A stretch of DNA of 64,000 nt, from positions 1,578,210 through 1,642,209 of the forward strand of contig NZ_CP018258.1 of the NCBI RefSeq assembly GCF_001953175.1, in the 5' to 3' direction. A model generated the notes under the pieces. It searched no databases. It worked only from the letters and a program-made list of their open reading frames with translations, and was not told the DNA's origin. This stretch comes from Dehalogenimonas formicexedens (GTDB taxonomy: Bacteria > Chloroflexota > Dehalococcoidia > Dehalococcoidales > Dehalococcoidaceae). Position numbers and translations under genes: made by a program. Shown piece after piece: positions 48,193 through 64,000 of this stretch. The stretch's first letter is position 1. Each line of letters opens with the position of its first letter.

Positions 48193-48266
48193 TAGCGCAT
48201 ACGGGATTCGAACCCGTGATCTCTGCCTTGAGAGGGCAGCGTCCTAGGCCGCTAGACGAATGCGCC
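48193..48266 (-). tRNA. tRNA-Glu (anticodon CTC), integration target
   Basis: A 74-nt cloverleaf on the minus strand: acceptor GGCGCAT/ATGCGCT, D-arm TCTAGCGGCCTAGGA, anticodon stem CTGCC/GGCAG around CTCTCAA (anticodon CTC), and T-arm ACGGGTTCGAATCCCGT. CCA follows directly in the DNA (48190-48192), unlike the TTC isoacceptor at 29.8 kb. The first 23 nt are also the last codons of the serine recombinase gene. Confidence 0.93.
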
Positions 48267-49764
48267 GCGAGGAATCTGGCTGCCGACTCAGGACGGGTTC
48301 CGTACCTTTACCCCGGGAGGAGATCAAGGCAAAAGGCGGGTTCAACTCAAATCCGGCAATCTTACCATCGCGAACCCTTACCTGTTTGAACACCGTTTCA
48401 CAGAGCAAGCGCCGGTTGTTATTATCGCCATTTTCGAATAACAAGTCAAACTTACTGGCAAGCTCCAAAGCTATTTCAAAGTCACCCCTTATCAGGCCGC
48501 GCCGCGTGCTTACAGTGGTTAGGAGGTCCCTGAGATTGGCCCTTTCGGCCTCGATGCGTGTCCGGTGTTCCCTATAGTCTTCTTTTGAGACGTCCTCCTC
48601 CAAGAGCATCTCCTGGAGGTGATTTTCCATCCGATCCAATTTCAGAAGCCGCTGCCTGGCCCGCTCCAATTCTTCATCCCCGTTGTTTTCGGCGGCAAAC
48701 CATTTGCTGAGTTGCACTTCAAGTTCAACTTTCCCCTCTTCGGTTATGGTGATGTCTTTGATGACTTCGAAAAGCTGGCCATCGATATCGCGGGTATTGT
48801 AGAAGATCTGACTGCCATTGACCCTTCCCTTGGTGCGGTAGTAGCTGATCTTCTTCTTCGGATGCGTCTCAACAAAGCAAGGTGTGGCGGTGTCATCGGA
48901 GTACAACAGCCCCCGCAGAAGATAGGTGTGGCGCTGGGTGCGTTGCTTGTAGTTATCATGTGATCTCAGGATCACATTTACCGTGGCGAAAGTATCGGCC
49001 TCGGTAAGAGCCTCGTGATTGCCTTTGTTAGGCATGTCGCCCTTCTTAAGCCAAGTCTCCCCAAGATAAAAGCGGTTGTGAAAGACAAAACTCCAGAGAC
49101 CGCTTGAAATACGAAAGCCTTTCCGGCTGCGATAGCCCTGACTATAAACGTAGTCCGCCCACTCTTTTATGGTCCATTTCCCCGAAGCCATCTCCCTGAA
49201 GGCCCTGGTTACGAGAGGGCCGAGTTCGGGATCAACTTCGATCCAGGCACTGCTTTTGTCATGCTTATTGAGATATCCGAGGGGCGCCAGTTTCGGCCAA
49301 CCGCCTTGCTCAACCTTCTCTTTAAGTCCCTTTCTGGCTTCAACAGCCAGATTCTTTGAATACCAGGTGCTGATGATCTGCATCATCCGCCGGCCGATGT
49401 AACCGGCTGGCGTGGAGGCATCCCCCGGCTCGCTGACGCTCTCGAGACTTATGCTGAGTTCTTCCAGTTCTTTCTCATAAACAACGAAGTCATAGTCATT
49501 TCGAGCGAAACGGTCGAATTTGTGAACGAGTATTATGTCAATTTCTCGTGCCCGGGCAGCGCTGATCATTTTCTGGAATTCGGTGCGCTTATCGGTGCGG
49601 GCGCTCTCACCGGCATCGACGTACTCCTTGACCACCTCCCAGCCGTTACCCTTGGCATGATAGCGGCACCTTTCAAGCTGAAATGGAATGGAGAGGTCCC
49701 GTTCCGCTTGCTCCTCGGTGGAAACCCTGGCGTAGATAGCGACCCTTTTGACATCACCGCTCAT
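48244..49764 (-). CDS. Large serine recombinase (integrase)
   Basis: A 506-residue recombinase. The resolvase catalytic domain starts AIYARVSTEEQAERD with the nucleophilic Ser in YARVST. Arg residues follow in DKFDRFARND, then a recombinase domain (KWTIKEWADYVYSQGYRSRKG, SSGLWSFVFHNRFYLGE). The zinc-ribbon region (LLRGLLYSDDTATPCF) has lost most of the usual cysteines. A coiled coil follows (about 370-430). I start at ATG 49764, which has GGAGG upstream and overlaps the ImmA-like stop (ATGA). The C-terminal codons lie within tRNA-Glu, so integration at this tRNA is the natural reading. Confidence 0.92.
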   Translation of the reverse strand: MSGDVKRVAIYARVSTEEQAERDLSIPFQLERCRYHAKGNGWEVVKEYVDAGESARTDKRTEFQKMISAARAREIDIILVHKFDRFARNDYDFVVYEKELEELSISLESVSEPGDASTPAGYIGRRMMQIISTWYSKNLAVEARKGLKEKVEQGGWPKLAPLGYLNKHDKSSAWIEVDPELGPLVTRAFREMASGKWTIKEWADYVYSQGYRSRKGFRISSGLWSFVFHNRFYLGETWLKKGDMPNKGNHEALTEADTFATVNVILRSHDNYKQRTQRHTYLLRGLLYSDDTATPCFVETHPKKKISYYRTKGRVNGSQIFYNTRDIDGQLFEVIKDITITEEGKVELEVQLSKWFAAENNGDEELERARQRLLKLDRMENHLQEMLLEEDVSKEDYREHRTRIEAERANLRDLLTTVSTRRGLIRGDFEIALELASKFDLLFENGDNNNRRLLCETVFKQVRVRDGKIAGFELNPPFALISSRGKGTEPVLSRQPDSSRRIRLAA

Positions 49765-50723
49765 GGCAACCTCCAACTGCATCTATTCGGATTATGGCAC
49801 CTTTTTTCGGACGGGCAAAAATGGTCTCCATTGACTGATACCGGTTCGAGTAATTCCAGTTGCGGGGCAAGCATACCGCACTCTTCACTGGGTACGGCAA
49901 GGAGAATCACCCTGTATGGCTCGAGACTTGAGGTAAATAACGGACGCACCAGGACCGCGGGGGAGTTTTCGATATGCGGGCTGCGCCACAAAAGCGATTT
50001 TCCGCCGGTAATGGCGGCGCACACCAGGGAGGCGGTCTCGGGTCGGCTATGGCGGGCCGGCGTCGGCTGCACCCAGCAAAGGTTTTTGGTCCGGCGAGCC
50101 CGTCCTGTTTTCACAACCACCGTCGCCACGAAATCATCAGCCTCAGCCTTCTCGGCGGCGGGAGTCTTCGGTTGGTGCTCGTACAGCGCCCCGATAAGCG
50201 GAATATCGGTGTGGTGCTGCCCTAGGGCGATCATCAGGCATTGATGCGAAAGTCCGAGTTCTTCGCCCAATTTTACAAGGTCGCATCCGGTCCTCCCCAC
50301 TTGCTCCAGAAAGAAGACCGACGGTATCAAGGCAGAAGCGGCGAAACGGTCGGCGTGCTGGCTGAGTTTGGGTTCAACCATCGGGCTAATGCCAGCGTCG
50401 ATAGCGCTGAGCTCTTTATGTATGATTTCAAAAAGCTCGTGGAAGATGTCGAACTTCTGAGTGCCGGTGCGGTCTTTAGCCGCGTAATGGATATGCCAGG
50501 ATCCCCTGGCCGACATGTTGGTGCCGCCACTGTCCAGGTAAACGACGCCCTCGATCTTGATATCGAATGAACGTATCAGTTCAAGGGTCTTTTTGAGGCT
50601 CGGCGTGCGGTCGATCCCGGCATAATCTCGAAATAAAGACGCCAATCTCACCGGGTCACCAGCATCCTGTCCCTCGCTAAGGGCAAAACGGCAGAACTCC
50701 ATGAGTCTATCAGAAACGGTCAT
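49761..50723 (-). CDS. ImmA/IrrE-like metallopeptidase homologue
   Basis: A 320-residue protein. Residues 40-150 follow the ImmA/IrrE layout (IDRTPSLKKTLELIRSFDI, then QKFDIFHELFEIIHKEL, then QHADRFAASALIPSVFFLEQ). The zinc motif HExxH appears as HELFE, with the second His replaced by Glu, although another His lies three residues on. The C-terminal 110 residues are unrecognised. In phages and ICEs such a protein cleaves the XRE repressor encoded next to it. Here it sits 15 bases after an XRE gene and overlaps the integrase. Proteolytic activity is uncertain. Confidence 0.72.
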   Translation of the reverse strand: MTVSDRLMEFCRFALSEGQDAGDPVRLASLFRDYAGIDRTPSLKKTLELIRSFDIKIEGVVYLDSGGTNMSARGSWHIHYAAKDRTGTQKFDIFHELFEIIHKELSAIDAGISPMVEPKLSQHADRFAASALIPSVFFLEQVGRTGCDLVKLGEELGLSHQCLMIALGQHHTDIPLIGALYEHQPKTPAAEKAEADDFVATVVVKTGRARRTKNLCWVQPTPARHSRPETASLVCAAITGGKSLLWRSPHIENSPAVLVRPLFTSSLEPYRVILLAVPSEECGMLAPQLELLEPVSVNGDHFCPSEKRCHNPNRCSWRLP

Positions 50724-50738
50724 GTAATCCCCCGGGTA

Positions 50739-51137
50739 CTAAATTGTGAGCAACTTCTTGCCGGTCAGGGTTTCGTAGACGATGACGATGCCGCGTTTGG
50801 CTTCGATGCTTAAGGTCTCGCCCCTGATACGGGTGCCGAGCTTATAGTCCGGGTCGGAAAGCACGTACTGGAAAGCGGCTTCGATTCGCTCGTCTTCGCT
50901 GGCCGTAACTTCGCGTTCGTCCAGGTAACCGGCCCTCATAAATAACTCCCTCGCCGTTACCTTATAGGCGGGAGCCAGTTTCTTGAGAATTTCCGGTCGA
51001 GGCGTCGGCTTTTCGCCTGTTTCTATCTGGGAGATATAGGCATTAGAAACGCCGCTTACCTTTTCGACTTCACGCATCGACATGCGCTGCCTCTCCCGGA
51101 GACTCCGCAGGTATTGACCAAAAGTGAGTTCTGCCAT
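50739..51137 (-). CDS. XRE-family repressor
   Basis: A 132-residue repressor. Residues 6-62 are a Cro/C1-type helix-turn-helix (GQYLRSLRERQRMSMREVEKVSGVSNAYISQIETG). The C-terminal part has a beta-rich stretch ending ETLTGKKLLTI. It is first in the leftward operon with the ImmA-like protein and recombinase, and faces a divergent promoter. The likely job is to keep the element quiescent and repress one or both promoters. Confidence 0.88.
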   Translation of the reverse strand: MAELTFGQYLRSLRERQRMSMREVEKVSGVSNAYISQIETGEKPTPRPEILKKLAPAYKVTARELFMRAGYLDEREVTASEDERIEAAFQYVLSDPDYKLGTRIRGETLSIEAKRGIVIVYETLTGKKLLTI

Positions 51138-51777: not shown

Positions 51778-52025
51778 TGGGTGCGCAAACAGCCGGTATT
51801 CACAAGGCCGAGCCGGTTGCATGTGAACCCCACCTTATCAAGCAGCGGATCCGCAACCTTATCGAACTCGCCATCATCATCGGCCGAAAAGAAGGCCTGA
51901 TAAAGAGTCACGAAGAAACCAAAATGAAAAAGGAGGAGCACCATGTCGCCAATCAAAGGGATCACCGGTGTCATCAGATTGCCCAGGCTGGGCAAGATCA
52001 GGCTCGGACTACGGAAGGAATCTAG
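51777..52025 (+). CDS. Small hypothetical protein overlapping the next gene
   Basis: An 82-residue frame whose ATG overlaps the preceding TGA (TGATG), suggesting coupling. Residues 19-52 are helical (HLIKQRIRNLIELAIIIGRKEG), and the rest is polar and lies inside the start of the gene at 51943, an overlap of 83 bases. I recognise no family. The long overlap makes the C-terminal part doubtful; the gene is plausible but not certain. Confidence 0.4.
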   Translation: MGAQTAGIHKAEPVACEPHLIKQRIRNLIELAIIIGRKEGLIKSHEETKMKKEEHHVANQRDHRCHQIAQAGQDQARTTEGI

Positions 52026-52923
52026 TGAGGGGTTTCCCTACCCGGTACCGACCGATTACTTCGTCTGCCCGGATGAGGTCAGGAAAATCTTCGGAGAAAA
52101 ACCCACCGAGCTTGCCATCATGCTGCCGACCGAAGACCCAAACCAGTGGGCAGGCCAGTACCTGCGGTGCTATTCGTCCTACCGCGGCCTCATCTGCCGC
52201 GGCGACGGCGAGACCGCCCTCGCCAGGGTGAATATAAAGACCGGCCGCATCGCCACCCATGAGGACGTAGAGACCGAGCTCAGGGAGATCACCTGTAGCC
52301 CGAAGACATGCGCTCATTATGAGACCCTCCGCTGCAAACGGGTGATGAATTTACAGTTCCTCATCCCCGACTGCCCCGGCCTGGGCGTCTACCAGCTCGA
52401 TACCAGTTCGTTTCATTCCATCGTCGGCATCAATTCAAGCCTTGAACTTGTTAAGGCCGTCTGCGGCCGGCTGTCGATGATCCCGTTGTCCCTGAGGCTC
52501 ATTGAGAAGGAAGTGGAGGTCGATGGGAAGAAAAAGACCGTCCGGGTTCTATCCCTGACTGCTTCATACACGCTGGCTGAAATCCAGAAATTCGCCCAAA
52601 TGCCGCCGGGCCAGGTGCTGGTTCTGCCGCCGCCTGACAGCGAGGCTCCAGACGACCTTTTCCCGGAGGCAGTAATCAGCAAGGAGAATGTCAGGCTCGA
52701 GGACGGCGTTACCGAACGCGACCTGATCAAACTTTGGGACCGGGCGAAGAGCAAGGTCTGGCAGCTCGATATCCGGGAGCACCAGCTCAAGGAGTGGTTT
52801 GAGAAGCACTGCCACGTCAACGTCGAAATGGACGACTTCAACTGGCCGCTGCCGCCGGCGAAATTCACCGCCGAAGGCCTTAACCGGTTCCTTAAAGCTG
52901 TCGACCGCGACGCCGCTTCCTAG
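51943..52923 (+). CDS. Candidate recombination directionality factor (gp3-like)
   Basis: A 326-residue protein. A middle cluster TCSPKTCAHYETLRCKR, then LQFLIPDCPGLGVYQLDTSSFHSIVGIN, recalls the Cys cluster and 'C-x-G-x-x-Q-L-x-T-x-S' block of phiC31 gp3-like directionality factors, which bind serine integrases and reverse their direction. The following LSLRLIEKEVEVDGKKKTVRVLSL is also of that type. A serine integrase in the same element supports the idea. AAGGAGGAG precedes ATG 51943. The assignment is from remembered pattern only. Confidence 0.45.
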   Translation: MSPIKGITGVIRLPRLGKIRLGLRKESSEGFPYPVPTDYFVCPDEVRKIFGEKPTELAIMLPTEDPNQWAGQYLRCYSSYRGLICRGDGETALARVNIKTGRIATHEDVETELREITCSPKTCAHYETLRCKRVMNLQFLIPDCPGLGVYQLDTSSFHSIVGINSSLELVKAVCGRLSMIPLSLRLIEKEVEVDGKKKTVRVLSLTASYTLAEIQKFAQMPPGQVLVLPPPDSEAPDDLFPEAVISKENVRLEDGVTERDLIKLWDRAKSKVWQLDIREHQLKEWFEKHCHVNVEMDDFNWPLPPAKFTAEGLNRFLKAVDRDAAS

Positions 52924-52936
52924 AGCGAATATCACC

Positions 52937-55225
52937 ATGAAAGACATGAGCGGTGAAAAGGCCGCTACTGGAGGCGTGTTCTCCGAGGCCGTGCCGGAGC
53001 TTCTGGAAAATCATCTGAAGCATCTTCTGGAAGAAACCGGCCTCGATCTCGACATCATCCGGGAGCGGAAATACCGGAGCATTGTGGGCAAAGCCGAGCT
53101 TGCCAGGCTCGGTTTTGCACCGGCACAACAACAGGTCCCCGGACTTTTGATTCCCCTCTGGGGCGTCGATGGTCAGGCAGCCGGTTGCCAGCTCCGGCCT
53201 GATAATCCTCGCACCAACAACCAAGGCAAGATAGTGAAGTACGAGCTCCCGGCCGGTTCGTCGAACCGCCTCGATTGCCCGCCTCGATGTCACAAAGCCC
53301 TCGGCAATCCGAAAGTTCCTCTCTGGATTACCGAGGGCTCGAAGAAGGCCGATGCCCTGGCTGGCCGCGGCGCCTGCGCCATATCCGTCACCGGCGTCTG
53401 GGGCTTCAAGGGCAAGAACGAGTTCGGCGGCGTCACCTTCCTCGCCGATTGGGATTACATCGCCCTCAAAGACCGCACTGTTTACCTCGCCTTCGACTCC
53501 GACATCGTCACCAAGGAGCCGGTAAGGAAAGCGCTGTCCCATGTCGCCGAGCATATCCGGCGCAAAGGGGCGAAAGTGCAAATCGTCCAACTGCCTCAGT
53601 TGGAAGGTCAGGGCAAAACAGGCATTGACGACTATCTGCTGCGACATTCCCTTGCCGATGCCGAAAAACTGGTTGGCGAGTTTAAGCTGGAAGAGGAAGA
53701 CCGGGAACGCTATGTCTCCGGCTTCGTCCTCCGCGATGGCACGGTGGGCGAGATGGTGGTCGACGAAGACGACCGTTATTTCATGGTTTCGGATGGCGGG
53801 GCAATCAAAAAGGTCTGGCAGTACGACACCTCGAAGGTGGCTTACTTGCCAACCGCTGATCCACTGGTCGGCCAGGTAGTGCACTTCGCCCCTGGCGCCA
53901 CGCCCTATGACTCCCAGGCAATCCTCTTCAGCGAGGTAAAGAACTTCATTCACCGTTATATGGAACTGCCGGCCGACTTCGAGGAGATCGCTTCGCTCTA
54001 TGTCCTTTTAAGCTGGGTATATGAGTTTGCCCCGTCGATTCCCTATCTCCGGGTGATTGGCGACTGGGGCACTGGCAAGACGCGCTTTTTGCAGGTCGTA
54101 GGCAGCGTCTGCTTCCGGCCGATGTTTGCCTCAGGCGCGACCACCCCGTCGCCGATCTTCCGCATCCTGGAACAATTCCGGGGAACGCTGGTGCTTGATG
54201 AAGCCGACTTCAAGGATTCTTCCGCCTGGACGGAGATGGTGAAGCTTCTCAATAACGGCTACCGGCCGGGTATGCCGGTCCTTCGAGCCGACAAGGAAAA
54301 CGGGAAATGGTTTCCGCGGGGCTACCAGGTGTTCGGCCCGAAACTTCTGTCGACCAGGTTTCCTTTCAGCGACGAGGCCCTGGAGAGCCGCTGCCTCACC
54401 TCCGAGATGATGCCTCTCACCCGCGACGACATCCCCCGGGTGCTGCCGGCATCGTTCGACAAGGAAGTCGGGACCCTGCGCTCAAAGCTGTTAACTTTTC
54501 GTCTTCATAATCTCTGTCGCCTGAAGGGCAAGACCTTTGGCAACGAACTTCTCGAACCGAACCTGCAGCCACGGCTTCAGGAGATCCTCATCCCGATGAA
54601 AGCGATGCTTAACGGCGACCATGCCATGGCGGAGGCGCTGGGCAGTTTCGTCCACCGGCTGCAGGAGTCGCTTTACACTAGGCGCCGGGAGAGCGATGCG
54701 GGACGGGTACTTGCCGCCATGATCGAACTGCACTTGAAAAATCAGGAACTGTCCCTCAAAAACATCGCCTTATACGCCAGCGCTATAGACGAAGAAGGGG
54801 CTCCGTTTAACCCGGAAAAGGCTGGCTGGCTGACCCGGCGACTGGGCTTTCAAAAAGAGAAGGGAAGCACCACCCGGCGAAGGGTGGTCTGCTGGGATCA
54901 GGCAAGGGTCGAAAGCCTGGTCAAGCAGTACGGCCTTGCGCTCGAAACCCCCGTATCGGTGGTAAAACCTTTCATTCCTTTCGAACCTTTCGAAACAGCT
55001 TCGGATTCCCCGAAAGGTTCTGCCGGCGAGGAAAAACCTTTCGCTGAAAAAGCCGGAAATATTGCGGATTTAGCTTCAAACGGGGCGAAAGGTTTGGAAA
55101 CCGCGGAAAAACCTTTCGAAAAACCTTTCAATCGTGAGCCTGAACGTGAGGCGAAAGGTTTGAAAGGTTCGAAAGGTTCTGAGCCGAATGCGGCGCCTCA
55201 TCATCAGCCGGAGGAAACTACATGA
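52937..55225 (+). CDS. Replication protein: DUF3854 (TOPRIM-like) plus helicase
   Basis: A 762-residue protein. Residues 30-260 fit DUF3854, a TOPRIM-like primase-associated domain (LWITEGSKKADAL; VYLAFDSDIVTKEPVR; KTGIDDYL). Residues 340-560 are an ATPase with Walker A in RVIGDWGTGKTRFLQV, Walker B in LVLDEADF and sensor residues in FGPKLLSTRFPF. The last 90 residues are a low-complexity tail of KPF and KG(L/S) units encoded by repeated octamers. The protein probably opens and primes the element's DNA. ATG 52937 was chosen over the frame's earlier start, which overlaps the previous gene. Confidence 0.78.
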   Translation: MKDMSGEKAATGGVFSEAVPELLENHLKHLLEETGLDLDIIRERKYRSIVGKAELARLGFAPAQQQVPGLLIPLWGVDGQAAGCQLRPDNPRTNNQGKIVKYELPAGSSNRLDCPPRCHKALGNPKVPLWITEGSKKADALAGRGACAISVTGVWGFKGKNEFGGVTFLADWDYIALKDRTVYLAFDSDIVTKEPVRKALSHVAEHIRRKGAKVQIVQLPQLEGQGKTGIDDYLLRHSLADAEKLVGEFKLEEEDRERYVSGFVLRDGTVGEMVVDEDDRYFMVSDGGAIKKVWQYDTSKVAYLPTADPLVGQVVHFAPGATPYDSQAILFSEVKNFIHRYMELPADFEEIASLYVLLSWVYEFAPSIPYLRVIGDWGTGKTRFLQVVGSVCFRPMFASGATTPSPIFRILEQFRGTLVLDEADFKDSSAWTEMVKLLNNGYRPGMPVLRADKENGKWFPRGYQVFGPKLLSTRFPFSDEALESRCLTSEMMPLTRDDIPRVLPASFDKEVGTLRSKLLTFRLHNLCRLKGKTFGNELLEPNLQPRLQEILIPMKAMLNGDHAMAEALGSFVHRLQESLYTRRRESDAGRVLAAMIELHLKNQELSLKNIALYASAIDEEGAPFNPEKAGWLTRRLGFQKEKGSTTRRRVVCWDQARVESLVKQYGLALETPVSVVKPFIPFEPFETASDSPKGSAGEEKPFAEKAGNIADLASNGAKGLETAEKPFEKPFNREPEREAKGLKGSKGSEPNAAPHHQPEETT
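54966..55178. repeat. Array of ten AACCTTTC/GAAAGGTT octamers
   Basis: AACCTTTC occurs at 54966, 54984, 55035, 55110 and 55122; its complement GAAAGGTT at 55012, 55087, 55153, 55162 and 55171. That is ten exact copies in 213 bases, five in each direction, inside the 3' end of the replication gene. The copies keep the codon frame and give KPF or KGL/KGS. The array could be an origin or protein-binding site. Confidence 0.75.
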
Positions 55226-55687: not shown

Positions 55688-56047
55688 ATGGAAGAGCGTT
55701 TCAACCGGATCAAGCGCATGCAACTGGATCTGGCATATGAGCTTCAGTCCTTCATGGCCGATTGTTTTTCTAATGCCGCCGACCCGGCCGCTATCATCGG
55801 TTTCGCTCAGCGGCTCGGCATGGATATATCGGCAGCCCAAAGAACAGCGTCTTCAACTCAGCCGACTTTTGACCCCTACCGTATCCTCGGCTGCGACCGG
55901 TCCATGCCTCAGGAGCAGGTGAGGCGGCGTTATCTCGATCTCTTGCGGAAACTCCATCCCGACACCGCCGGTATCAAAGGTACTGAGTACCTGACTCAAC
56001 TTGTGACCGAGGCGTTCAGGAAAATCTCAAGCGAAAGGAGGTGGTGA
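55688..56047 (+). CDS. J-domain protein
   Basis: A 119-residue protein. The C-terminal 60 residues are a J domain: YRILGCDRSMPQEQVRRRYLDLLRKLHPDTAG, with the essential HPD, then LVTEAFRKISSERR. The N-terminal half is helical. J domains stimulate Hsp70 (DnaK); phage and plasmid forms recruit it to disassemble replication complexes. It is encoded between the replication protein and an AAA+ ATPase. An in-frame GTG six bases upstream is also possible. Confidence 0.8.
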   Translation: MEERFNRIKRMQLDLAYELQSFMADCFSNAADPAAIIGFAQRLGMDISAAQRTASSTQPTFDPYRILGCDRSMPQEQVRRRYLDLLRKLHPDTAGIKGTEYLTQLVTEAFRKISSERRW

Positions 56048-56048
56048 A

Positions 56049-56969
56049 ATGAAAGCTGACAACACCCTTGAACTTCTCACGGAGATCGCCCGGTTCGAGG
56101 CCTCGGTAGACATGGACAAGGACTACCGCATCGGCTGGGGCTGGCGGCATGTCCGGATCTGGCCGGCCACGCTTTCCAAGCTTTTCAAAGAAGGCTACCT
56201 CGAAAACGTCTTCCGCTCTAACTCCCACACCGGCTACCGGTTGAGCGAACTGGGCAAAAGCCTTCTTGCGGCTGAAAACACGCCGCCCCGGACGCACCAG
56301 GAGCCAAAACTGGCAACACCCAACTCTCTTTTCGATGACATCATAGGGCATGACGGCGTAAAAGAACTTCTCAGGGCGTCATTACTTGCCGAAAAGCCAG
56401 TGCATGTGCTCCTTACCGGGCCGCCGGCGCTGGCCAAGACGCTATTCCTCTGGGACATCGAAAGGGCGGGCGGCGAGAAAGCTATCTGGCTGGTGGGCTC
56501 GGCCACATCGAAAGCTGGACTATGGGACCTGGTGGCCGAGCGCGAGCCGTCGATACTCCTTATTGACGAGATCGACAAGATGAACGCCGCCGATACTGCC
56601 GCGCTTCTCACCATGATGGAAGGCGGGCGGTTGGTGCGGGCTAAGAGAGGCCGCGAGCTCAACTTAAACAACCCTCTCCGCGTGATCGCCGCTTCCAACC
56701 GCTGTGAAAAACTGTCGCCGGAACTTCGGTCGCGGTTCGCCATCCGGCAGCTCTTCCCATATGGCCGGGCGGAGTATCTCACGGTCGTAAAAGGCGTGTT
56801 GGTGCGATGCGAAGGCCTCAGTCCCGAGCTTGCTGAAGAGATCGCCCGCCGCCTGGACGGCCTCACCCAGAACGTTCGCGATGCCATCAGGGTGGCAAGA
56901 CTGGCGCCCCAACTCGGGGTAGAAAAAGCAATCAAATTATTGATCGGAGGAAACGAAGGTGAAAAGTGA
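56049..56969 (+). CDS. AAA+ ATPase with winged-helix N-terminus
   Basis: A 306-residue protein. Residues 1-80 look like a winged helix (WPATLSKLFKEGYLENVFRSNSHTGYRLSE). The AAA+ domain has Walker A GPPALAKT (near 123), Walker B ILLIDEIDK, sensor 1 in VIAASNRCE and an Arg-rich SPELRSRF. The pattern is closest to RuvB/MoxR-like helicases or remodelers. In this position it probably loads or moves the replication machinery. AGGAGGTGG precedes ATG 56049. Confidence 0.85.
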   Translation: MKADNTLELLTEIARFEASVDMDKDYRIGWGWRHVRIWPATLSKLFKEGYLENVFRSNSHTGYRLSELGKSLLAAENTPPRTHQEPKLATPNSLFDDIIGHDGVKELLRASLLAEKPVHVLLTGPPALAKTLFLWDIERAGGEKAIWLVGSATSKAGLWDLVAEREPSILLIDEIDKMNAADTAALLTMMEGGRLVRAKRGRELNLNNPLRVIAASNRCEKLSPELRSRFAIRQLFPYGRAEYLTVVKGVLVRCEGLSPELAEEIARRLDGLTQNVRDAIRVARLAPQLGVEKAIKLLIGGNEGEK

Positions 56970-57170: not shown

Positions 57171-57956
57171 GTGTACACATGCAAGATCTGCAACAGGCAA
57201 TTCAAGTCGATCAAGGCGCTCGGCGGTCATACGTCGGGCGCCCACCCGGTAAACAAGGATGAACCACCCATGAGCGAAAACCAGGCTCCTGAACAGGTTG
57301 ACGGAAAGGCGGATGAGGCGAGCATCGCCGCCGAGATCAGGGAATACCTGGGCAAGGGCTACACCTTCGAGCAACTCACGAATGACCTTCACTTCAAAGA
57401 AAGAACGGTGAGGCAGGAGCTGGCCAAGATGATCCCGGCGGCCGACGATCAGGCCAGCAACCTGCCGTCGACCTACAAGCAGAGCGAAGTCATTTCGCCA
57501 GAGGCGGTCCTCCGCCGTTACATGGGCGATAGCTATGAAGAACAGTGCGAGCTCCGGGGCATGATGAAACTCCGGTCGTCGATGCTTCTTGTAATGGAGC
57601 TGGCTCAAATCCAAAAGACGCAAGCCGAAGCTGAGGCGAAACGCTTTGAGCCCCTTTTAAGGATGCTGACTGCCTCTCGCGAGGAGCTCGATGCCGCGGC
57701 GGCCAGAGCCCGGGGCGCCAGTTCGGAAATGGCCAGAGAAGCGGCCCAAGAGGCGGTTGGCGGTGTCTTGGGCTATATCGAAGAGAAGCTACCCAAAGGA
57801 CCGCCGCCGAAGACGGTTGACGAGGCCTATGCCAAGCGAGTCGATAAAGTGATGGACATGATGTGGGGCATGATGGAGCAACAGATGTTTCCTGGCCGGG
57901 GCGGCGGTGGCGTTCCGGAAGGCTGGGAGACAGAACAAAAGAAAGGAGGCATGTAA
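57171..57956 (+). CDS. C2H2 zinc-finger protein
   Basis: A 261-residue protein starting at GTG 57171 (CAGGAGGCAGG upstream). The first 25 residues are a classical C2H2 finger: CKIC-x12-HTSGAH (C-x2-C-x12-H-x4-H). A helix-turn-helix-like stretch (YTFEQLTNDLHFKERTVRQELAKM, about 63-86), a long helix rich in Glu/Ala (about 140-200) and a Met/Gly-rich end follow. C2H2 fingers are rare in bacteria but are common in archaeal viruses and plasmids. It is probably DNA-binding. Coupled to the next gene by an ATGTAATG overlap. Confidence 0.7.
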   Translation: MYTCKICNRQFKSIKALGGHTSGAHPVNKDEPPMSENQAPEQVDGKADEASIAAEIREYLGKGYTFEQLTNDLHFKERTVRQELAKMIPAADDQASNLPSTYKQSEVISPEAVLRRYMGDSYEEQCELRGMMKLRSSMLLVMELAQIQKTQAEAEAKRFEPLLRMLTASREELDAAAARARGASSEMAREAAQEAVGGVLGYIEEKLPKGPPPKTVDEAYAKRVDKVMDMMWGMMEQQMFPGRGGGGVPEGWETEQKKGGM

Positions 57957-58550: not shown

Positions 58551-60461
58551 ATGACTTGGCATGATGATCTTTCTCCGGAACAAAAAGAGAAGGCCGAACA
58601 CTTTGGTTCACATGCAAGATTATTAGCTGGACCTGGAACGGGTAAGACTCGAACCATGACTGGTAGGATTGCCTTTCTGTTACAGGAAAAAAATGTTTCT
58701 GCAGGTGAGATTTTAGCCCTGACTTTCACTAGAGCAGCGGCAAGCGAACTAAGAAAACGCATTGCCGAGCATCAAGAAGGTGGAAGCATCCCTAAAGTAA
58801 CTACACTCCATTCTTTCGCTCTCCAATCGCTCCTGCAACTTGGAGCCGGTAACCGCCTCCCCTCTCCAATCAGAATTGCAGATGATTTTGAAGAAAGACA
58901 AATCATTGAAGAAGACATCAAAGACTTACTCGATTTGCCAAAGGTTAAAAATGCCCGGGATCTCATCGATCTTCTTTCCGCAGACTGGGAGATGCTTTCA
59001 GCTGAGGTCGATGATTGGGCTCATAGGTTTCCAAACCCCAGATTTCTTGGTGCTTGGCAAGAGCATCGAACAATCTACGGGTATACACTCCAAGCTGAAC
59101 TTGTATACCAATTAAAGAAGGCATTGGAAGAGGGAACAAGAAGACTTGCAAATTCGCCATTACATGTCTTGGTAGATGAATATCAAGATCTTAATGCATG
59201 TGATTTGTCTGTCATTAATAGCCTGGCGCGGGGTGGCGCCACACTCTACGTCGCTGGAGACGATGATCAAAGTATCTATGGCTTTAGACATGCTGATCCA
59301 ACTGGTATTCGCCGCTTTCTTGAAGAATATCCTGGATCTGAACCTCTGACACTATCTGAATGCCATCGTTGCGGTCAAAATATACTTACTATCGCAGATT
59401 ATGTTGCAGAGCAAGATATTCGCAGGCTTATTAAACCTTTGACTCCATGTAGCATGAGACCGGGAGAAGTTCATTTGTTAGAATTTAACGACTTTGATGA
59501 TGAAGCCAACGCGATTGCGCGAATTTCACGCTGGTTAGTTGAGACTAAAGGCATCACTCCCGATCAGATCTTGGTTTTGATTAGGTCTAATAAGCATCAC
59601 AGATTTTCCAACCCGATTTGTGCCGCATTGCAAAACCAAGGAATTCCAGCAACAACCGTTGAAAACCCACTGAATGTATTTGAACAAGATCAAGGCCGTG
59701 TTTTTATCTCATTTCTTCGCCTAATGGTCAATCGAAATGATAATTTGGCTTGGCGAAACCTGATTAAGATACGGGACAATGATCTAGGGGATGTCGCAGT
59801 TGCCAGCATTTACGAGATTGCTCGAAATAAGGGAATCACCTTCTTTGAAGCCCTGTCTCTAATAGCTAACAATCCAGTCCTTATCCCAAGACAGGGAGAA
59901 GCAATAAAAACAGAGTATGAAACCACAAATAATATGCTCGATAGGCTTAATGCGACGAACGAACATGCCGACAATCTTAGTGAGTTCATACATTGTATGG
60001 TCAACGAGTTACTTGCCATTGAACATGGGGAAGAAATGATGGAAGTCATCGAACACATTATTTCTGACAATTCCGGCATCTCGCTTGAGGATTTTCTGCG
60101 AGAAATCGTCTCTCCGATGCGGGACAAAGAACAAGTTCGAGTTGAAGGAAAGGTAAATGTAATGACAATGCATCAGGCAAAGGGACTCGATGCAGAAGTA
60201 ATTTTTGTTGCCGCAGCGGAAGATGAATATATCCCTGGGCGAGCTCAGGGTAATGAAATTGACGATGAGCGAAGATTGCTTTATGTGTCTCTCACTCGCG
60301 CACGTTCTTTTCTTTACGTCACCTATTGCAATCATCGAACAGGAATTCAACAGCATACTGGTAGATCACCTTTGACAGCGAGTCGTAACCTAACCCGGTT
60401 CCTCAGCGGGGGACCCGTGCGCCGAGTATTAGGCCAAACCTTTGTCGCTGGTTTAGATTAG
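58551..60461 (+). CDS. UvrD/PcrA-type superfamily 1 helicase
   Basis: A 636-residue SF1A helicase. Walker A GPGTGKTRT (near 31), motif Ia LALTFTRAAASEL, motif II VDEYQDLN, GDDDQSIYGFRHA, motif IV-VI VNVMTMHQAKGLDAEVIFVAA and RRLLYVSLTRAR are all intact. It unwinds DNA with ATP. The base composition is clearly more AT-rich than the rest of the element, and the gene is flanked by non-coding DNA on both sides, so it looks like acquired cargo. Stand-alone UvrD-like helicases occur in defence systems, but no nuclease partner is adjacent here. Confidence 0.88.
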   Translation: MTWHDDLSPEQKEKAEHFGSHARLLAGPGTGKTRTMTGRIAFLLQEKNVSAGEILALTFTRAAASELRKRIAEHQEGGSIPKVTTLHSFALQSLLQLGAGNRLPSPIRIADDFEERQIIEEDIKDLLDLPKVKNARDLIDLLSADWEMLSAEVDDWAHRFPNPRFLGAWQEHRTIYGYTLQAELVYQLKKALEEGTRRLANSPLHVLVDEYQDLNACDLSVINSLARGGATLYVAGDDDQSIYGFRHADPTGIRRFLEEYPGSEPLTLSECHRCGQNILTIADYVAEQDIRRLIKPLTPCSMRPGEVHLLEFNDFDDEANAIARISRWLVETKGITPDQILVLIRSNKHHRFSNPICAALQNQGIPATTVENPLNVFEQDQGRVFISFLRLMVNRNDNLAWRNLIKIRDNDLGDVAVASIYEIARNKGITFFEALSLIANNPVLIPRQGEAIKTEYETTNNMLDRLNATNEHADNLSEFIHCMVNELLAIEHGEEMMEVIEHIISDNSGISLEDFLREIVSPMRDKEQVRVEGKVNVMTMHQAKGLDAEVIFVAAAEDEYIPGRAQGNEIDDERRLLYVSLTRARSFLYVTYCNHRTGIQQHTGRSPLTASRNLTRFLSGGPVRRVLGQTFVAGLD

Positions 60462-60757: not shown

Positions 60758-60988
60758 TTGACAGGCCAGACACAGCCTGTATAATCTGATTTCGTAAGCC
60801 TCGTGAGCTTGCTGGAAAAACCCGGCTCACGAGGCTCGTTGTTTTTCACGGCAGCTCACAGGCTCGCACAAGGGGTCAGCACTCCGGACCGGCAAGGTTC
60901 AGGCTGACCCCTTTGCCTTTCCGCCCGGAGTGCAACCCCGAAATCGTCCCGGCCGCGAACGGACCGAGACTAAAGAGGAGGTGCCCGC
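60758..60988 (+). ncRNA. Structured leader of the late operon with promoter
   Basis: TTGACA (60758-60763) and TATAAT (60780-60785), 16 apart, precede three RNA elements. First, AGCCTCGTGAGC (60797-60808) pairs with GCTCACGAGGCT (60825-60836), then a T-run: a terminator only five bases into the transcript. Its left arm can also pair with GCTCACAGGCT (60854-60864). Second, AAGGGGTCAGC (60870-60880) pairs with GCTGACCCCTT (60903-60913). Third, GCACTCCGG (60879-60887), in that loop, pairs with CCGGAGTGC (60925-60933) beyond it: interleaved stems, a pseudoknot or switch. Confidence 0.6.
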
Positions 60989-61201
60989 ATGGGAAAGTAC
61001 GCCAGCTGGAACGACCTGGAAAAGAACGTCCCCGTCGCCTACCAAGAAAAAGCCACCCCCGAAGCCTTCCGCACCGGCATGAATGGCATCGCGCCGTCCG
61101 GTCTGAAGGTGAAAGAGGGGCGGGTTAATCACTATCGCGACGGCGTCGACGGCAAGGGTCCGGTCATGGTTAGCGGCTACAAGCGCGCCATGTTCGAATA
61201 G
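60989..61201 (+). CDS. First late-operon protein, unknown
   Basis: A 70-residue soluble protein. KYASWNDLEKNVPVAYQEKA suggests an initial helix, and the rest is Gly-rich and basic (SGLKVKEGRVNHYRDGVDGKGPVMVSGYKRAMFE). AGGAGG precedes ATG 60989. I recognise no family. It is the first gene after the structured leader. Confidence 0.6.
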   Translation: MGKYASWNDLEKNVPVAYQEKATPEAFRTGMNGIAPSGLKVKEGRVNHYRDGVDGKGPVMVSGYKRAMFE

Positions 61202-61343
61202 CGCCTGCTCTGCCTGATGCCTTTTCTCAGATTTTAATCCTTCTTCCTTCACTGCTGTCGCGGCGGCAGAGGAGGAAGATCCACCAGGGAGAGGACACCA
61301 GGCAAATGCCGGAAATCCAAATGAAAATAACGAGGAGGCAGCG

Positions 61344-61547
61344 ATGTTCAATCCACAGCAAATCAGCGGGCCGGTAGCGCCGGGGCAATATAACCCGATG
61401 CAGGTGAGCGGCCCGGGCTCTTACTACCCCACCCAGACCACCGATCCCTTTTCAGGGATGTTTTCCGCCATGATGCCCATGATCATGATGGTGATGATGA
61501 TGGCTATCATCATGCCCATGATGAAGGGCGTCACGTCTAAGGACTGA
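61344..61547 (+). CDS. Met-rich single-helix membrane protein (copy 1)
   Basis: A 67-residue protein. Residues 1-35 are a Gly/Pro/Gln/Tyr-rich, probably exposed segment (QQISGPVAP, SGPGSYYPTQTTD). Then comes a membrane helix with 12 methionines in 24 residues (about 38-61), and a short charged end (KGVTSKD). It is a close paralogue of the next gene. Such composition is very unusual. GAGGAGGCAGCG precedes ATG 61344. Function unknown; a structural or membrane-remodelling role is inferred from size and context. Confidence 0.65.
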   Translation: MFNPQQISGPVAPGQYNPMQVSGPGSYYPTQTTDPFSGMFSAMMPMIMMVMMMAIIMPMMKGVTSKD

Positions 61548-61583
61548 ACTAAAACGAAAGTTACTGTAGGAGGTAGCTAAACC

Positions 61584-61778
61584 ATGTACGCAACACAGCA
61601 GTTCGCCGGGATGCAGGCCCGGCCCCAGCAATACCAGTACGGCACTGTCGGCGGCTACTATCCCCAGCAGACCACCGACATGACGAGCATGTTCTCGGGC
61701 ATGATGCCCATGATCATGATGGTGATGATGATGGCCATCATGATGCCGATGATGAAAGGCATCACCGGTAAATCCTAG
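61584..61778 (+). CDS. Met-rich single-helix membrane protein (copy 2)
   Basis: A 64-residue paralogue of the preceding protein: a Gln/Tyr-rich exposed start (ATQQFAGMQARPQQYQYG), the shared YYPxQTTD block, a membrane helix with 13 methionines in 24 residues and a terminal KGITGKS. GTAGGAGGTAGC precedes ATG 61584. The pairing of two near-identical small membrane proteins recalls major and minor coat subunits or pore subunits. That is inference. Confidence 0.65.
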   Translation: MYATQQFAGMQARPQQYQYGTVGGYYPQQTTDMTSMFSGMMPMIMMVMMMAIMMPMMKGITGKS

Positions 61779-61809
61779 GCGAGGCAAATTCAATACAGGA
61801 GGTAAATTC

Positions 61810-62397
61810 TTGAACAAGAAGATTGTTCCGCAGCAATATCCGGGCTATCCCGGGGCGCGGCCTCCCAAGGGCTGGGTGCCTCCCCTGGGTCAGTCGTTGG
61901 CGCTGCTCGGCGTGTACGACAACGAGTCTGGCAACTGGATGGGTCTGCCGCTCCAGGTATTTAGGGAAGCCCTGCTAAACGCCGAGGCAATCCATACCGA
62001 AGACCGCATCGACGAGCGCGACAAGGTCGAGGTAACCGTGCCTGATGCTTCGGCCCAGGATACGGTCAAAACCGTCGAGCTCGAGGTGCCGGCAGGCGAG
62101 GTCTGGTTCCTGAACCGCCTCAACTTGGTCACCGAAGCCGAGGTGTCGGGCAACTTCCGTGTCTCGAAGTTCCCAAAGTCAGACACCATCGACAAGAAAT
62201 ACTTGGGCACCGACCAGGCGGCCGGGGCTAATACCAACTACGACCTGGCCGCGGCCGGGCAGCTCGGCGCCGATCTCCGGCTCACCCCTGGCGACAAGCT
62301 GACCGTGGTCGCCACGGTGACCGCCGCCGGCGGCACCACGGCAGCCCGAAAGGTGACCCTTAATCCGTACGGCCGCAAGGCCAGGCGGCTAGTCTAA
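61810..62397 (+). CDS. Beta-rich protein, possible structural component
   Basis: A 195-residue protein starting at TTG 61810 with a strong CAGGAGGTAAATT site. Residues 1-45 are Pro/Gly-rich (QQYPGYPGARPPKGW). Residues 75-195 show alternating strands: VKTVELEVPAGEVWFLNRLNLV, GNFRVSKFP, DKLTVVATVTAAGGTT. The phrase EVPAGEVWFLNRL resembles beta-sandwich proteins of virions. No membrane helix. I do not know the family. Confidence 0.55.
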   Translation: MNKKIVPQQYPGYPGARPPKGWVPPLGQSLALLGVYDNESGNWMGLPLQVFREALLNAEAIHTEDRIDERDKVEVTVPDASAQDTVKTVELEVPAGEVWFLNRLNLVTEAEVSGNFRVSKFPKSDTIDKKYLGTDQAAGANTNYDLAAAGQLGADLRLTPGDKLTVVATVTAAGGTTAARKVTLNPYGRKARRLV

Positions 62398-62414
62398 GCG
62401 TAGGGAGGCTTCCC

Positions 62415-62915
62415 ATGCCCTATGCGATGGTGCCGCCGGGCTACCGGGCTATCCCACTGGGGCAAACCGGTAGCATTGAAGGACTGGGCGCCTTCGCCCC
62501 GCTCGAAGAGAGCTCAGACGAAGGCGCTCTTTTCTTAGCCCGGCTCGATTTCGAGGAATTTCCTTCGGGCGAGATAATGGCGCAGCTGGAGCAGGCTTTT
62601 AGCGATGCCGGAGTCGAGCATTGGCCCGGCTATAGCTATATCGTACATGCCGATTCGGGCAGGCCTGCCGTTTATCTCGCCTGGCAGAAGGGATTCGCCT
62701 GGCTGCCGATCATTGCCGGCATTATCGGTTTCATCGCCCTGCCGCCGCTGGTCGGCACCGTCATCTGGTGGCTGATCCCGGAGGATGTGAAAAACCTCAT
62801 CTCCAGCCTCATCAACATGGGCATGATGCTGCTTGTTATGTACATCCTGATGCAGGTGATGAAGCCGCTCGCCGCGCCTAAAAAGCCCAAGAAATTACCC
62901 GAGGCTAAAACATGA
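62415..62915 (+). CDS. Membrane protein with soluble head, two helices
   Basis: A 166-residue protein. Residues 1-90 are a soluble alpha/beta-like head (ALFLARLDFEEFPSGEIMAQLEQAF). Two helices follow (about 93-118 and 124-150: WLPIIAGIIGFIALPPLVGTV; LINMGMMLLVMYILMQVM), then a basic Pro/Lys tail (APKKPKKLPEAKT). GGGAGGC precedes ATG 62415. It overlaps the next gene (ATGA). Family unknown. Confidence 0.6.
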   Translation: MPYAMVPPGYRAIPLGQTGSIEGLGAFAPLEESSDEGALFLARLDFEEFPSGEIMAQLEQAFSDAGVEHWPGYSYIVHADSGRPAVYLAWQKGFAWLPIIAGIIGFIALPPLVGTVIWWLIPEDVKNLISSLINMGMMLLVMYILMQVMKPLAAPKKPKKLPEAKT

Positions 62916-63073
62916 ACGGCTACCCCACAGAGTACAACACCTACCAGCCGATGTTCTGGCAGTCGGCATTTTCTGCGATCATCGGCGTTGCCATGATGAT
63001 CGCCCTGGGTACCTGGGCTCTGTCCACGGTGAGAAAAGCCTTGAAAGGCGAAGACGTGGAGTTTCCATTATGA
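62912..63073 (+). CDS. Tiny single-helix membrane protein
   Basis: A 53-residue protein not usually called because of its size: a Tyr/Pro/Gln-rich start (NGYPTEYNTYQPMFWQ), one helix (about 18-38, AFSAIIGVAMMIALGTWAL) and a basic-then-acidic tail (VRKALKGEDVEFPL). The ATG overlaps the preceding stop, and its own stop overlaps the next ATG. Coupling on both sides makes it credible. Family unknown. Confidence 0.6.
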   Translation: MNGYPTEYNTYQPMFWQSAFSAIIGVAMMIALGTWALSTVRKALKGEDVEFPL

Positions 63074-63636
63074 GCCAGGCATCATCGGTCATGGGTGGCG
63101 CGCTGGGCGATGTCTTCTGGGACCTGCCGCCATGGCTTTACTACACCCCAGGTTATGATCTGGGTCTTTCCGTTTATGTGGCCAATCCCACTGACGTGGA
63201 GCAGGAATACGCCCTGATGGCCCGGCTGTCGCGGGACACTACCCAGATTAGCGAAGAAGCCTTGCCGGTCTTCGGCTACACCTGGTTCAAGGTCGAGCCT
63301 GGGGACCTCGCCCAACTCAAAGGCGCTTTGCGTTTTTCCGAGACCAACGCGGTCCTTGCGCTGCTTTTACACGAGAAAGAAAGCGGCGAGGTCATCGACT
63401 CAGTGGCCACCATGCTGGTAGCGCCGGGTAGCTCGGTGCTGCCGCCGGCCTGGCCCGGTGCGCCAGGAAACGCCGGCTCTTCAGGCTTCGACTGGACCTC
63501 GCTCATGGGACTCATGTTGCCGGTTTTGATGCTGGGTATAGTGGCCTCGGCAATGAAGCCGAAAACAGACAAGGCCAAGCAGCTTGCGCCGGCAAAAGAA
63601 CCCGCAAAACAGTTGCCGGTCGGGAGGGGAAGCTGA
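63070..63636 (+). CDS. Membrane protein with beta-rich head and C-terminal helix
   Basis: A 188-residue protein. The N-terminal 125 residues are beta-rich (YDLGLSVYVANPTDVEQEYALMARLS; LPVFGYTWFKVEPGDLAQLKGALRF), the pattern of an immunoglobulin-like sandwich. A helix follows (about 140-158, SLMGLMLPVLMLGIVAS) and then a basic Lys/Pro/Ala tail, like the product at 62415. It is coupled to both neighbours by overlapping stop and start codons. Family unknown. Confidence 0.6.
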   Translation: MSQASSVMGGALGDVFWDLPPWLYYTPGYDLGLSVYVANPTDVEQEYALMARLSRDTTQISEEALPVFGYTWFKVEPGDLAQLKGALRFSETNAVLALLLHEKESGEVIDSVATMLVAPGSSVLPPAWPGAPGNAGSSGFDWTSLMGLMLPVLMLGIVASAMKPKTDKAKQLAPAKEPAKQLPVGRGS

Positions 63637-64000
63637 TGCCCGGCGAGTTTTACGTCGAGGGAAGCAAGGCGAAGCTGAGCCTTAAAGCCATCGAGACGGC
63701 CATCGCCAACCTCGAGGCGAGGCTTGAGGCGATTAGGAACCAGACCGACAAGTTATCCGGCGAGATCCCGTATGTGGGTTTCACCATAGCCGACTGGCAG
63801 ATCGCCGAGAGCAACCTGATCGTCGTCGGGGCACCGGGGGTGAAGTACAAGCTCCACGACCTTTCCCTCGGTATCCAAAACCTTGCCGGAACTCAGATCA
63901 CCATCAGGCTGTATAAGCAGATAAACGGCATCGAGCGAAAAGTGTATGAACAGTCTTTCGACGCTGCCGCGGATGGCCCAGGCTTGCCGGTGGTCAACGG
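63636..64000 (+). CDS. Late-operon protein, 3' end outside window
   Basis: At least 121 residues, running off the right edge. A helical coiled-coil-like start (LSLKAIETAIANLEARLEAIRNQ) is followed by beta strands (NLIVVGAPGVKYKLHDLSLGI; TQITIRLYKQING). Its ATG overlaps the previous stop (TGATG). A coiled coil plus beta domain would fit a trimeric fibre or spike, but that is a guess. Confidence 0.6.
   Translation, partial: MPGEFYVEGSKAKLSLKAIETAIANLEARLEAIRNQTDKLSGEIPYVGFTIADWQIAESNLIVVGAPGVKYKLHDLSLGIQNLAGTQITIRLYKQINGIERKVYEQSFDAAADGPGLPVVN

Follow-up and report, generated by a model that had tools for sequence, protein, structure and literature searches.

The closest described parallels to the element analyzed here, as we interpret it, come from two groups of tailless viruses. 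The Portogloboviridae, represented by Sulfolobus polyhedral virus 1 (SPV1), would resemble it in a double-stranded DNA genome (~20 kb) of mostly short genes, in single jelly-roll shell proteins and membrane proteins, and in that the functions assigned in the family profile include no packaging ATPase (PMC8459092). The Halopanivirales (Sphaerolipoviridae, Simuloviridae and the Thermus phage P23-77) would resemble it in being tailless, membrane-containing and temperate or lytic, with genomes of 16-30 kb, single jelly-roll shells and fast-changing spikes (PMC12642351; PMC5332951). In the literature searched, no virus of this kind was found described from Dehalococcoidia; a tailed prophage has been reported in Dehalococcoides (Waller 2012, as cited in PMC3462421). 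The window examined in the present work is the whole stretch of 64,000 nucleotides corresponding to bases 1578210-1642209 of the single 2,092,789-bp chromosome of Dehalogenimonas formicexedens NSZ-14, a genome that was examined in stretches. This strain is taken as the host because the tmRNA ends at 1,384,296, a single base ahead of the start (1,384,297) published for the NSZ-14 dcpA island that follows ssrA (PMC13390414). The window contains part of an integrated element with a long late operon, and we judge it moderately probable that a virus-like element of Dehalococcoidia, temperate, tailless and membrane-associated, builds its particles from this operon. Integration, a replication module, the operon, selection and a structured leader are read from the sequence; the particle, its membrane and the capsid role we infer.

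Eight late genes start within the window, all on the forward strand (window numbering; gene starts are used below as gene names). The first (60989..61201) encodes a small soluble protein with a paralogue at 70743 near the operon end (hhalign 99.9%). It is followed by two paralogous genes for small proteins that helix prediction and hhalign identify as tail-anchored by a Met-rich helix (61344..61547 and 61584..61778), the gene for a predicted single jelly roll, the candidate shell protein (61810..62397), those for a conserved two-helix membrane protein (62415..62915) and a one-helix membrane protein (62912..63073), both from helix prediction, a gene for a beta domain with a C-terminal membrane helix, for which the structure model is too weak for use (63070..63636), and a gene for a variable beta-rich protein, fibre-like in relatives, that extends past the window edge (63636..64103). 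The first-pass annotation, made from the letters alone, had described eight tightly coupled genes behind a strong promoter. The genes are indeed real and closely spaced, with gaps of -4 to 36 nucleotides from 61344 on and a first gap, between the 60989 gene and 61344, of 142 nucleotides, and a TTGACA-16-TATAAT promoter (60758..60785, forward strand) matches the sigma-70 -35 and -10 hexamers at 12/12 positions, where chance would yield 0.4 sites of 9/12 or better. Its count of five proteins with one or two helices (61344, 61584, 62415 with two, 62912 and 63070) was likewise correct, as was that of at least two other, beta-rich proteins, namely 61810, by prediction, and 63636, by sequence. The end coordinate 64000 is the window edge only: the operon continues for ~9 kb, to 73069, and comprises 25 genes over ~12 kb, and no standard terminase/portal/tail or VirB/relaxase set appeared in this extension. 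Far from all late proteins falling into a well-described family, none belongs to a well-described structural one, and only three were recognized by Pfam: a subtilisin of family S8 (1.3e-34), a zinc-ribbon tyrosine recombinase (4e-22) and a DUF192-helix-ArdcN-M78 protein, the M78 match of which lies under the Pfam cut-off.

The late block is present three times in the NSZ-14 genome, as copy A in the window, copy B (~233-257 kb) and copy C (~1848-1872 kb). Counterparts were found in B for every tested gene of A and in C for most of them, and the late promoter is retained in both. The copies are diverged (83-92% DNA identity), the aligned late genes contain no stops, and the ratio of nonsynonymous to synonymous substitution rates (dN/dS) in comparisons of A, B and C is mostly 0.02-0.25, indicative of purifying selection; judged from these comparisons, the late block is functional coding DNA, and its coding status is certain. 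Four adjacent late genes show zero synonymous differences between A and B (L005:4157-5900 vs L007:7158-8901), although these copies differ elsewhere, which suggests recent gene conversion. Homologues of 61810 were detected in 13 of 393 Dehalococcoidia genomes and in 7 of 400 phylum-wide genomes, the latter all from the host's own family; in the named-genome collection, further matches came only from Dehalococcoidia or 'Chloroflexi' metagenome-assembled genomes. The host and the relatives found belong to Dehalococcoidia, as had been anticipated. The order of the late genes found is kept in close relatives and rearranged in distant ones, and 60989, 61344/61584, 61810, the subtilisin and the recombinase are well conserved.

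Among the beta-rich late proteins, 61810 is conserved best, its counterparts in B and C being 99% and 92% identical, and it lacks a membrane helix. An AlphaFold2 model built from a ten-sequence alignment (predicted local distance difference test, pLDDT, 74.8; predicted template modelling score, pTM, 0.63) is mostly beta with one helix, residues ~58-194 forming a jelly-roll-like beta sandwich. Coat proteins predominate among the best PDB matches found by Foldseek (birnavirus VP2, ilarvirus, alfamovirus, polerovirus, nanovirus and circovirus), but the E values are modest (4e-4 to 4e-3) and the TM scores are ~0.2-0.35. With the VIA tool, Z scores of 7-8 were obtained against PHM, nucleoplasmin and a phage cement protein, and of 6-7 against satellite virus coats, HHIV-2 (6.9) and SPV1 (6.1), which is under the decisive level, as a Z under 8 can, according to the tool note, mean merely a common arrangement. 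A search of a viral structure library was headed by small uncharacterized phage proteins. On these models, 61810 is likely to be a jelly roll and plausibly a capsid protein. The models of the other late beta proteins were poor, and searching the PDB with profiles of the 61810, 63070 and 64621 families returned nothing useful; among the folds sought in the late proteins, a predicted jelly roll was found and a packaging ATPase was not.

Under a simple hydropathy rule, 11 late proteins have predicted membrane helices, those of 64104 and 71048 being marginal. A C-terminal Met-rich helix is common to 61344, 61584 and 68157 (hhalign 97% or more), with weaker links, possibly inflated by hydrophobic bias, to 63070, 62415 and the tail of the subtilisin. 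The subtilisin triad is intact in 8/8 copies checked, and its tail is similar to the Met-rich helix tails. Peptidoglycan has been lost in Dehalococcoidales, and an S-layer is present in some Dehalococcoidaceae (PMC10284905), so that a protease would be a sensible stand-in for lysozyme in these hosts. As to the fibre-like proteins, comparison with PHROGs linked a relative of 64621 to a 'tail fiber' family (5.6e-4), and the 63636 gene of L072 encodes a long coiled coil matching tail-needle and minor-head families, probably in part due to coiled-coil composition; 69508 and 70143 have an N-terminal segment in common (hhalign 84%). The 64104 and 64621 proteins and parts of 63636 are poorly conserved and are duplicated or replaced among relatives, and receptor-binding or vertex proteins turn over likewise in other viruses. 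A distant copy carries, in the variable position before the subtilisin, a 1867-residue repeat protein (L035:12054-17657) that is probably a surface or fibre protein, and a small cysteine-rich late protein with a CxxCxxCC pattern, encoded among the fibre-like genes (L005:6448-6765), is perhaps a metal-cluster protein.

Two leader RNA modules stand in tandem on the forward strand, after the promoter and ahead of 60989 (module 1, 60796..60864; module 2, 60870..60933), each consisting of two interleaved stems with the strand order X Y X' Y'. Covariation was detected for 16 pairs in module 1 and 25 pairs in module 2, and in both cases 0/500 shuffles reached the observed score. In module 2, 96% of cells are paired, 10 pairs are changed on both sides, and pairing is lost when the partners are slid as a control; the result for module 1 is similar. 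The leader alignment was hand-trimmed and the counts lean towards structure, the slid controls being far lower. The leader folds 7.3 standard deviations better than shuffles (z -7.3). A model of module 2 found a single strong site in each full element tested, at the late leader, and none elsewhere in 784 kb; a strong site was also found in L037 and L035, elements left out of model building, and a search of Rfam gave no convincing match and no such family. The first stems of the modules are GC-rich and are followed by U-rich tracts, an arrangement suggesting that the modules may keep output from the strong promoter in check until antitermination occurs; alternatively, they might act at the level of DNA, in packaging or as an origin.

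The element measures ~25-30 kb. In the window its left end is marked by a serine recombinase, the integrase (48244..49782, reverse strand; Pfam Resolvase 2e-30), which occupies the same place in B, C and relatives. Next to it, on the same strand, are an ImmA/IrrE-like regulator gene (49761..50723), with similar genes at the same place in B, C and Dehalococcoides, and an XRE-type repressor-like gene (50739..51137), whose position is occupied by similar genes in other copies, both assigned from sequence and position. The forward strand then encodes a Gp3-like recombination directionality factor, resembling an excision factor (51943..52923; Pfam 1.6e-52), a primase/helicase-like replication protein (52943..55225; Pfam DUF3854 4.9e-22, PHROG DNA primase 1.9e-9), a J-domain protein (55691..56047; Pfam DnaJ 4e-8), an AAA+ ATPase with an N-terminal region of unknown fold (56049..56969), a conserved C2H2-zinc-finger protein of the early block (57171..57956) and, in a cargo slot just before the late promoter, a UvrD/GajB-like helicase (58551..60461), replaced by other cargo in B and C. 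In Pfam and PHROGs the AAA+ ATPase is nearest to clamp-loader/MCM/RuvB types, not to HerA/FtsK, and it occurs in 22/393 genomes of the class at E <= 1e-30. The whole copy in UBA5620 (G262, same contig as L073; ~25 kb) has the order integrase, XRE, directionality factor, primase/helicase, J protein, AAA+ and late block, followed by a gene of the 72533 family, a sigma-like gene, a beta clamp, small genes and then host-like genes; the sigma-like label is a reading of the sequence, Pfam giving no match. The serine recombinase, the Gp3-like factor, the primase/helicase and the clamp are features of a temperate integrative element. Copy C runs from the serine integrase to a second tyrosine recombinase right after the late module, beyond which host-like (cobalamin-related) genes follow; this recombinase, also of the zinc-ribbon type (L009:10579-11343), is ~59% identical to the late-operon one. 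No long direct repeats that could serve as att sites were found in the stretches compared, so the exact element ends are not fixed. In A and B, a defence-gene slot lies after the late operon, between the 72533 gene and the sigma-like gene, and holds an LmuB-like ATPase and SoFic in A (L005:9443-13397) and a SIR2 protein in B (L007:12096-13910); the cargo in the Dehalococcoides copy is Dsr1 (E 3e-215; L044:10091-13405).

Up to these ends, with host-like genes bounding copy C and the UBA5620 copy, the absence of a phage or conjugation set noted by the first-pass annotation persists: scans of the element proteins with Pfam and PHROGs detected no terminase, portal, HK97 capsid or tail gene and no relaxase, coupling protein or VirB4/VirD4. 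A Zot/HerA-like ATPase by the G361 element was considered as a packaging motor and rejected, having no match in NSZ-14 and lying outside the integrase. Related Zot/HerA-like ATPase genes are found directly downstream of a mini-element cassette in four other Dehalococcoidia genomes (L162:13492-14238, L163, L164 and L165). Such mini-elements, of 6-7 kb, consist of a serine integrase, a regulator, the zinc-ribbon tyrosine recombinase, 72533, the sigma-like gene and the clamp, and thus share the end genes with the full element and lack the structural genes. The last late gene, 72533, is present in 51/393 Dehalococcoidia genomes, and many of its copies sit in mini-element cassettes, in the IMG/VR contigs L086, L087 and L089 as well as in genomes; NSZ-14 itself has one at ~1,672.7-1,679 kb (L057:10512-16884), and another is at L179:7101-13523. 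Terminal repeats that would show circularity of the short contigs were not found. Mini-elements may be satellites of the full element, or they may represent an older type of element that gave rise to the virus-like one.

Our interpretation of the late operon as a particle-building block draws on the bounded elements devoid of standard phage genes and kept in three copies under purifying selection, the collinearity of the late genes in close relatives, the prediction of a jelly roll with viral coats prominent among its matches, the membrane-helix proteins with a C-terminal helix common to several, the fibre-like match together with the coiled-coil version in a relative and the fast turnover of 64104 and 64621, the intact subtilisin triad in hosts with S-layers and no peptidoglycan, and the integrase, Gp3-like factor, primase and clamp. 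Upon induction, the element would excise and replicate, and late transcription would pass the leader modules; 61810 would form a shell around or on a membrane bearing the tail-anchored proteins, and the fast-changing fibre-like proteins would bind the host surface. The subtilisin could cut the protein S-layer for exit or entry, replacing lysozyme because the hosts lack peptidoglycan, and the DUF192-ArdC-peptidase protein may ride in the particle, protecting incoming DNA. DNA might be packed without a recognizable motor, by co-assembly of shell and nucleoprotein, which is a guess. Several results weigh against this interpretation. The particle is hypothetical, and no free virion genome was detected in scans of viral contigs, where the late genes occurred only in one genome-derived provirus, alongside short contigs with the shared end genes. 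Profile scans revealed no HerA/FtsK packaging ATPase, only the clamp-loader/MCM-like AAA+, the primase/helicase and the cargo helicase. In tblastn searches, 61810 had no match in phages and plasmids, and two fibre-like proteins had none in phages. The fold match of 61810 is middling and fits cement, fibre and cellular jelly rolls too, and no second jelly roll was evident, hhalign finding no relation of 61810 to other late families. Obvious signal peptides are absent from the late proteins, the fibre-like ones included, and membrane topology is ambiguous.

The main competing explanation, which we consider unlikely, is a vesicle-type carrier, that is, DNA-filled membrane vesicles with tail-anchored beta proteins, comparable to pleolipoviruses or haloarchaeal plasmid vesicles, 61810 being a surface or cement protein and not a shell. 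The many small membrane proteins and the missing packaging motor would suit such a carrier, and the jelly-roll match covers cement and fibre proteins as well, but 61810, conserved best of the beta-rich late proteins, lacks a membrane helix, and viral coats are prominent among the structures closest to its predicted jelly roll. It appears quite improbable that no particle is made and that the operon builds a surface structure or an unfamiliar device for cell-to-cell transfer: the subtilisin and the Ig-like and fibre-like proteins could be displayed at the surface of the host, and one late protein includes an ArdC-type domain, a kind known from conjugative plasmids, but there is no relaxase, coupling ATPase or VirB4, the fibre-like proteins have no obvious signal peptides, and the operon layout resembles that of a phage late operon. 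The earlier annotation had left a membrane-containing or enveloped virion and an unfamiliar transfer machine side by side; of the two, the virion is the better fit to the predicted jelly roll and to the fibre-like proteins, its membrane or envelope being presumed. A remnant or rearranged tailed phage, its head genes lost or too diverged, is very improbable and largely refuted by the element ends, for although the fibre-like proteins resemble tailed-phage fibres and Dehalococcoides carries tailed prophages (PMC3462421; FL2 prophage), the bounded elements have no recognizable terminase, portal, capsid or tail gene and the copies are intact and collinear, not decaying.

Within the favoured interpretation, that of a virus-like particle, a broader proposal can be put forward, which we hold only tentatively and doubt as a whole: a new high-rank group of tailless membrane-associated bacterial viruses restricted to Dehalococcoidia would combine a single jelly-roll shell, the lack of a packaging ATPase and protease passage through a peptidoglycan-free S-layer envelope with a tandem interleaved-stem leader RNA governing the late genes and class-wide mini-element satellites borrowing the particles. 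If particles are found, they would represent a new virus type for Dehalococcoidia, bacteria that matter for chlorinated-solvent cleanup and are widespread in sediments and the sea, the host here breathing chlorinated pollutants. A cultured strain with three apparently intact copies makes particle formation directly testable. An element that is membrane-rich, has a jelly roll and lacks a packaging motor would be informative about DNA packaging in tailless viruses, and a protease as 'lysin' would suit hosts without peptidoglycan. The leader RNA is strongly covarying and absent from Rfam, and attenuation or antitermination of the 12-kb operon can be tested in vitro.

Compared with known mobile elements and viruses, the element stands apart in several respects. 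The ssrA islands of the same bacterial family (PMC13390414) carry rdh cargo beside tmRNA, neither of which is present in this element, and the Dehalococcoides prophage, also from that family, is of the tailed-phage type, unlike this element. Charybdis elements (PMC12324425), compared by description, are similar as mobile elements with a structural module, fibre-like proteins and no hallmark gene but differ in size (~4.6 kb) and in their putative archaeal host. In the Halopanivirales there are two jelly-roll major capsid proteins, together with a packaging ATPase of a type that was not found here. Pleolipoviruses and haloarchaeal plasmid vesicles have membrane-anchored surface proteins, few structural genes and no capsid hallmark or packaging motor. 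The late operon here, by contrast, comprises 25 genes, among them those for a predicted jelly roll and for fibre-like proteins. The Portogloboviridae infect archaea, are proven to have two jelly-roll proteins as well as a nucleocapsid protein, and have no integrase or replication proteins listed, whereas the element has one predicted jelly roll, no sequence match to them and no identified nucleocapsid protein. Accordingly, the element is placed in no known family: it is separated from the Halopanivirales by the packaging ATPase, and the Portogloboviridae provide an analogy.

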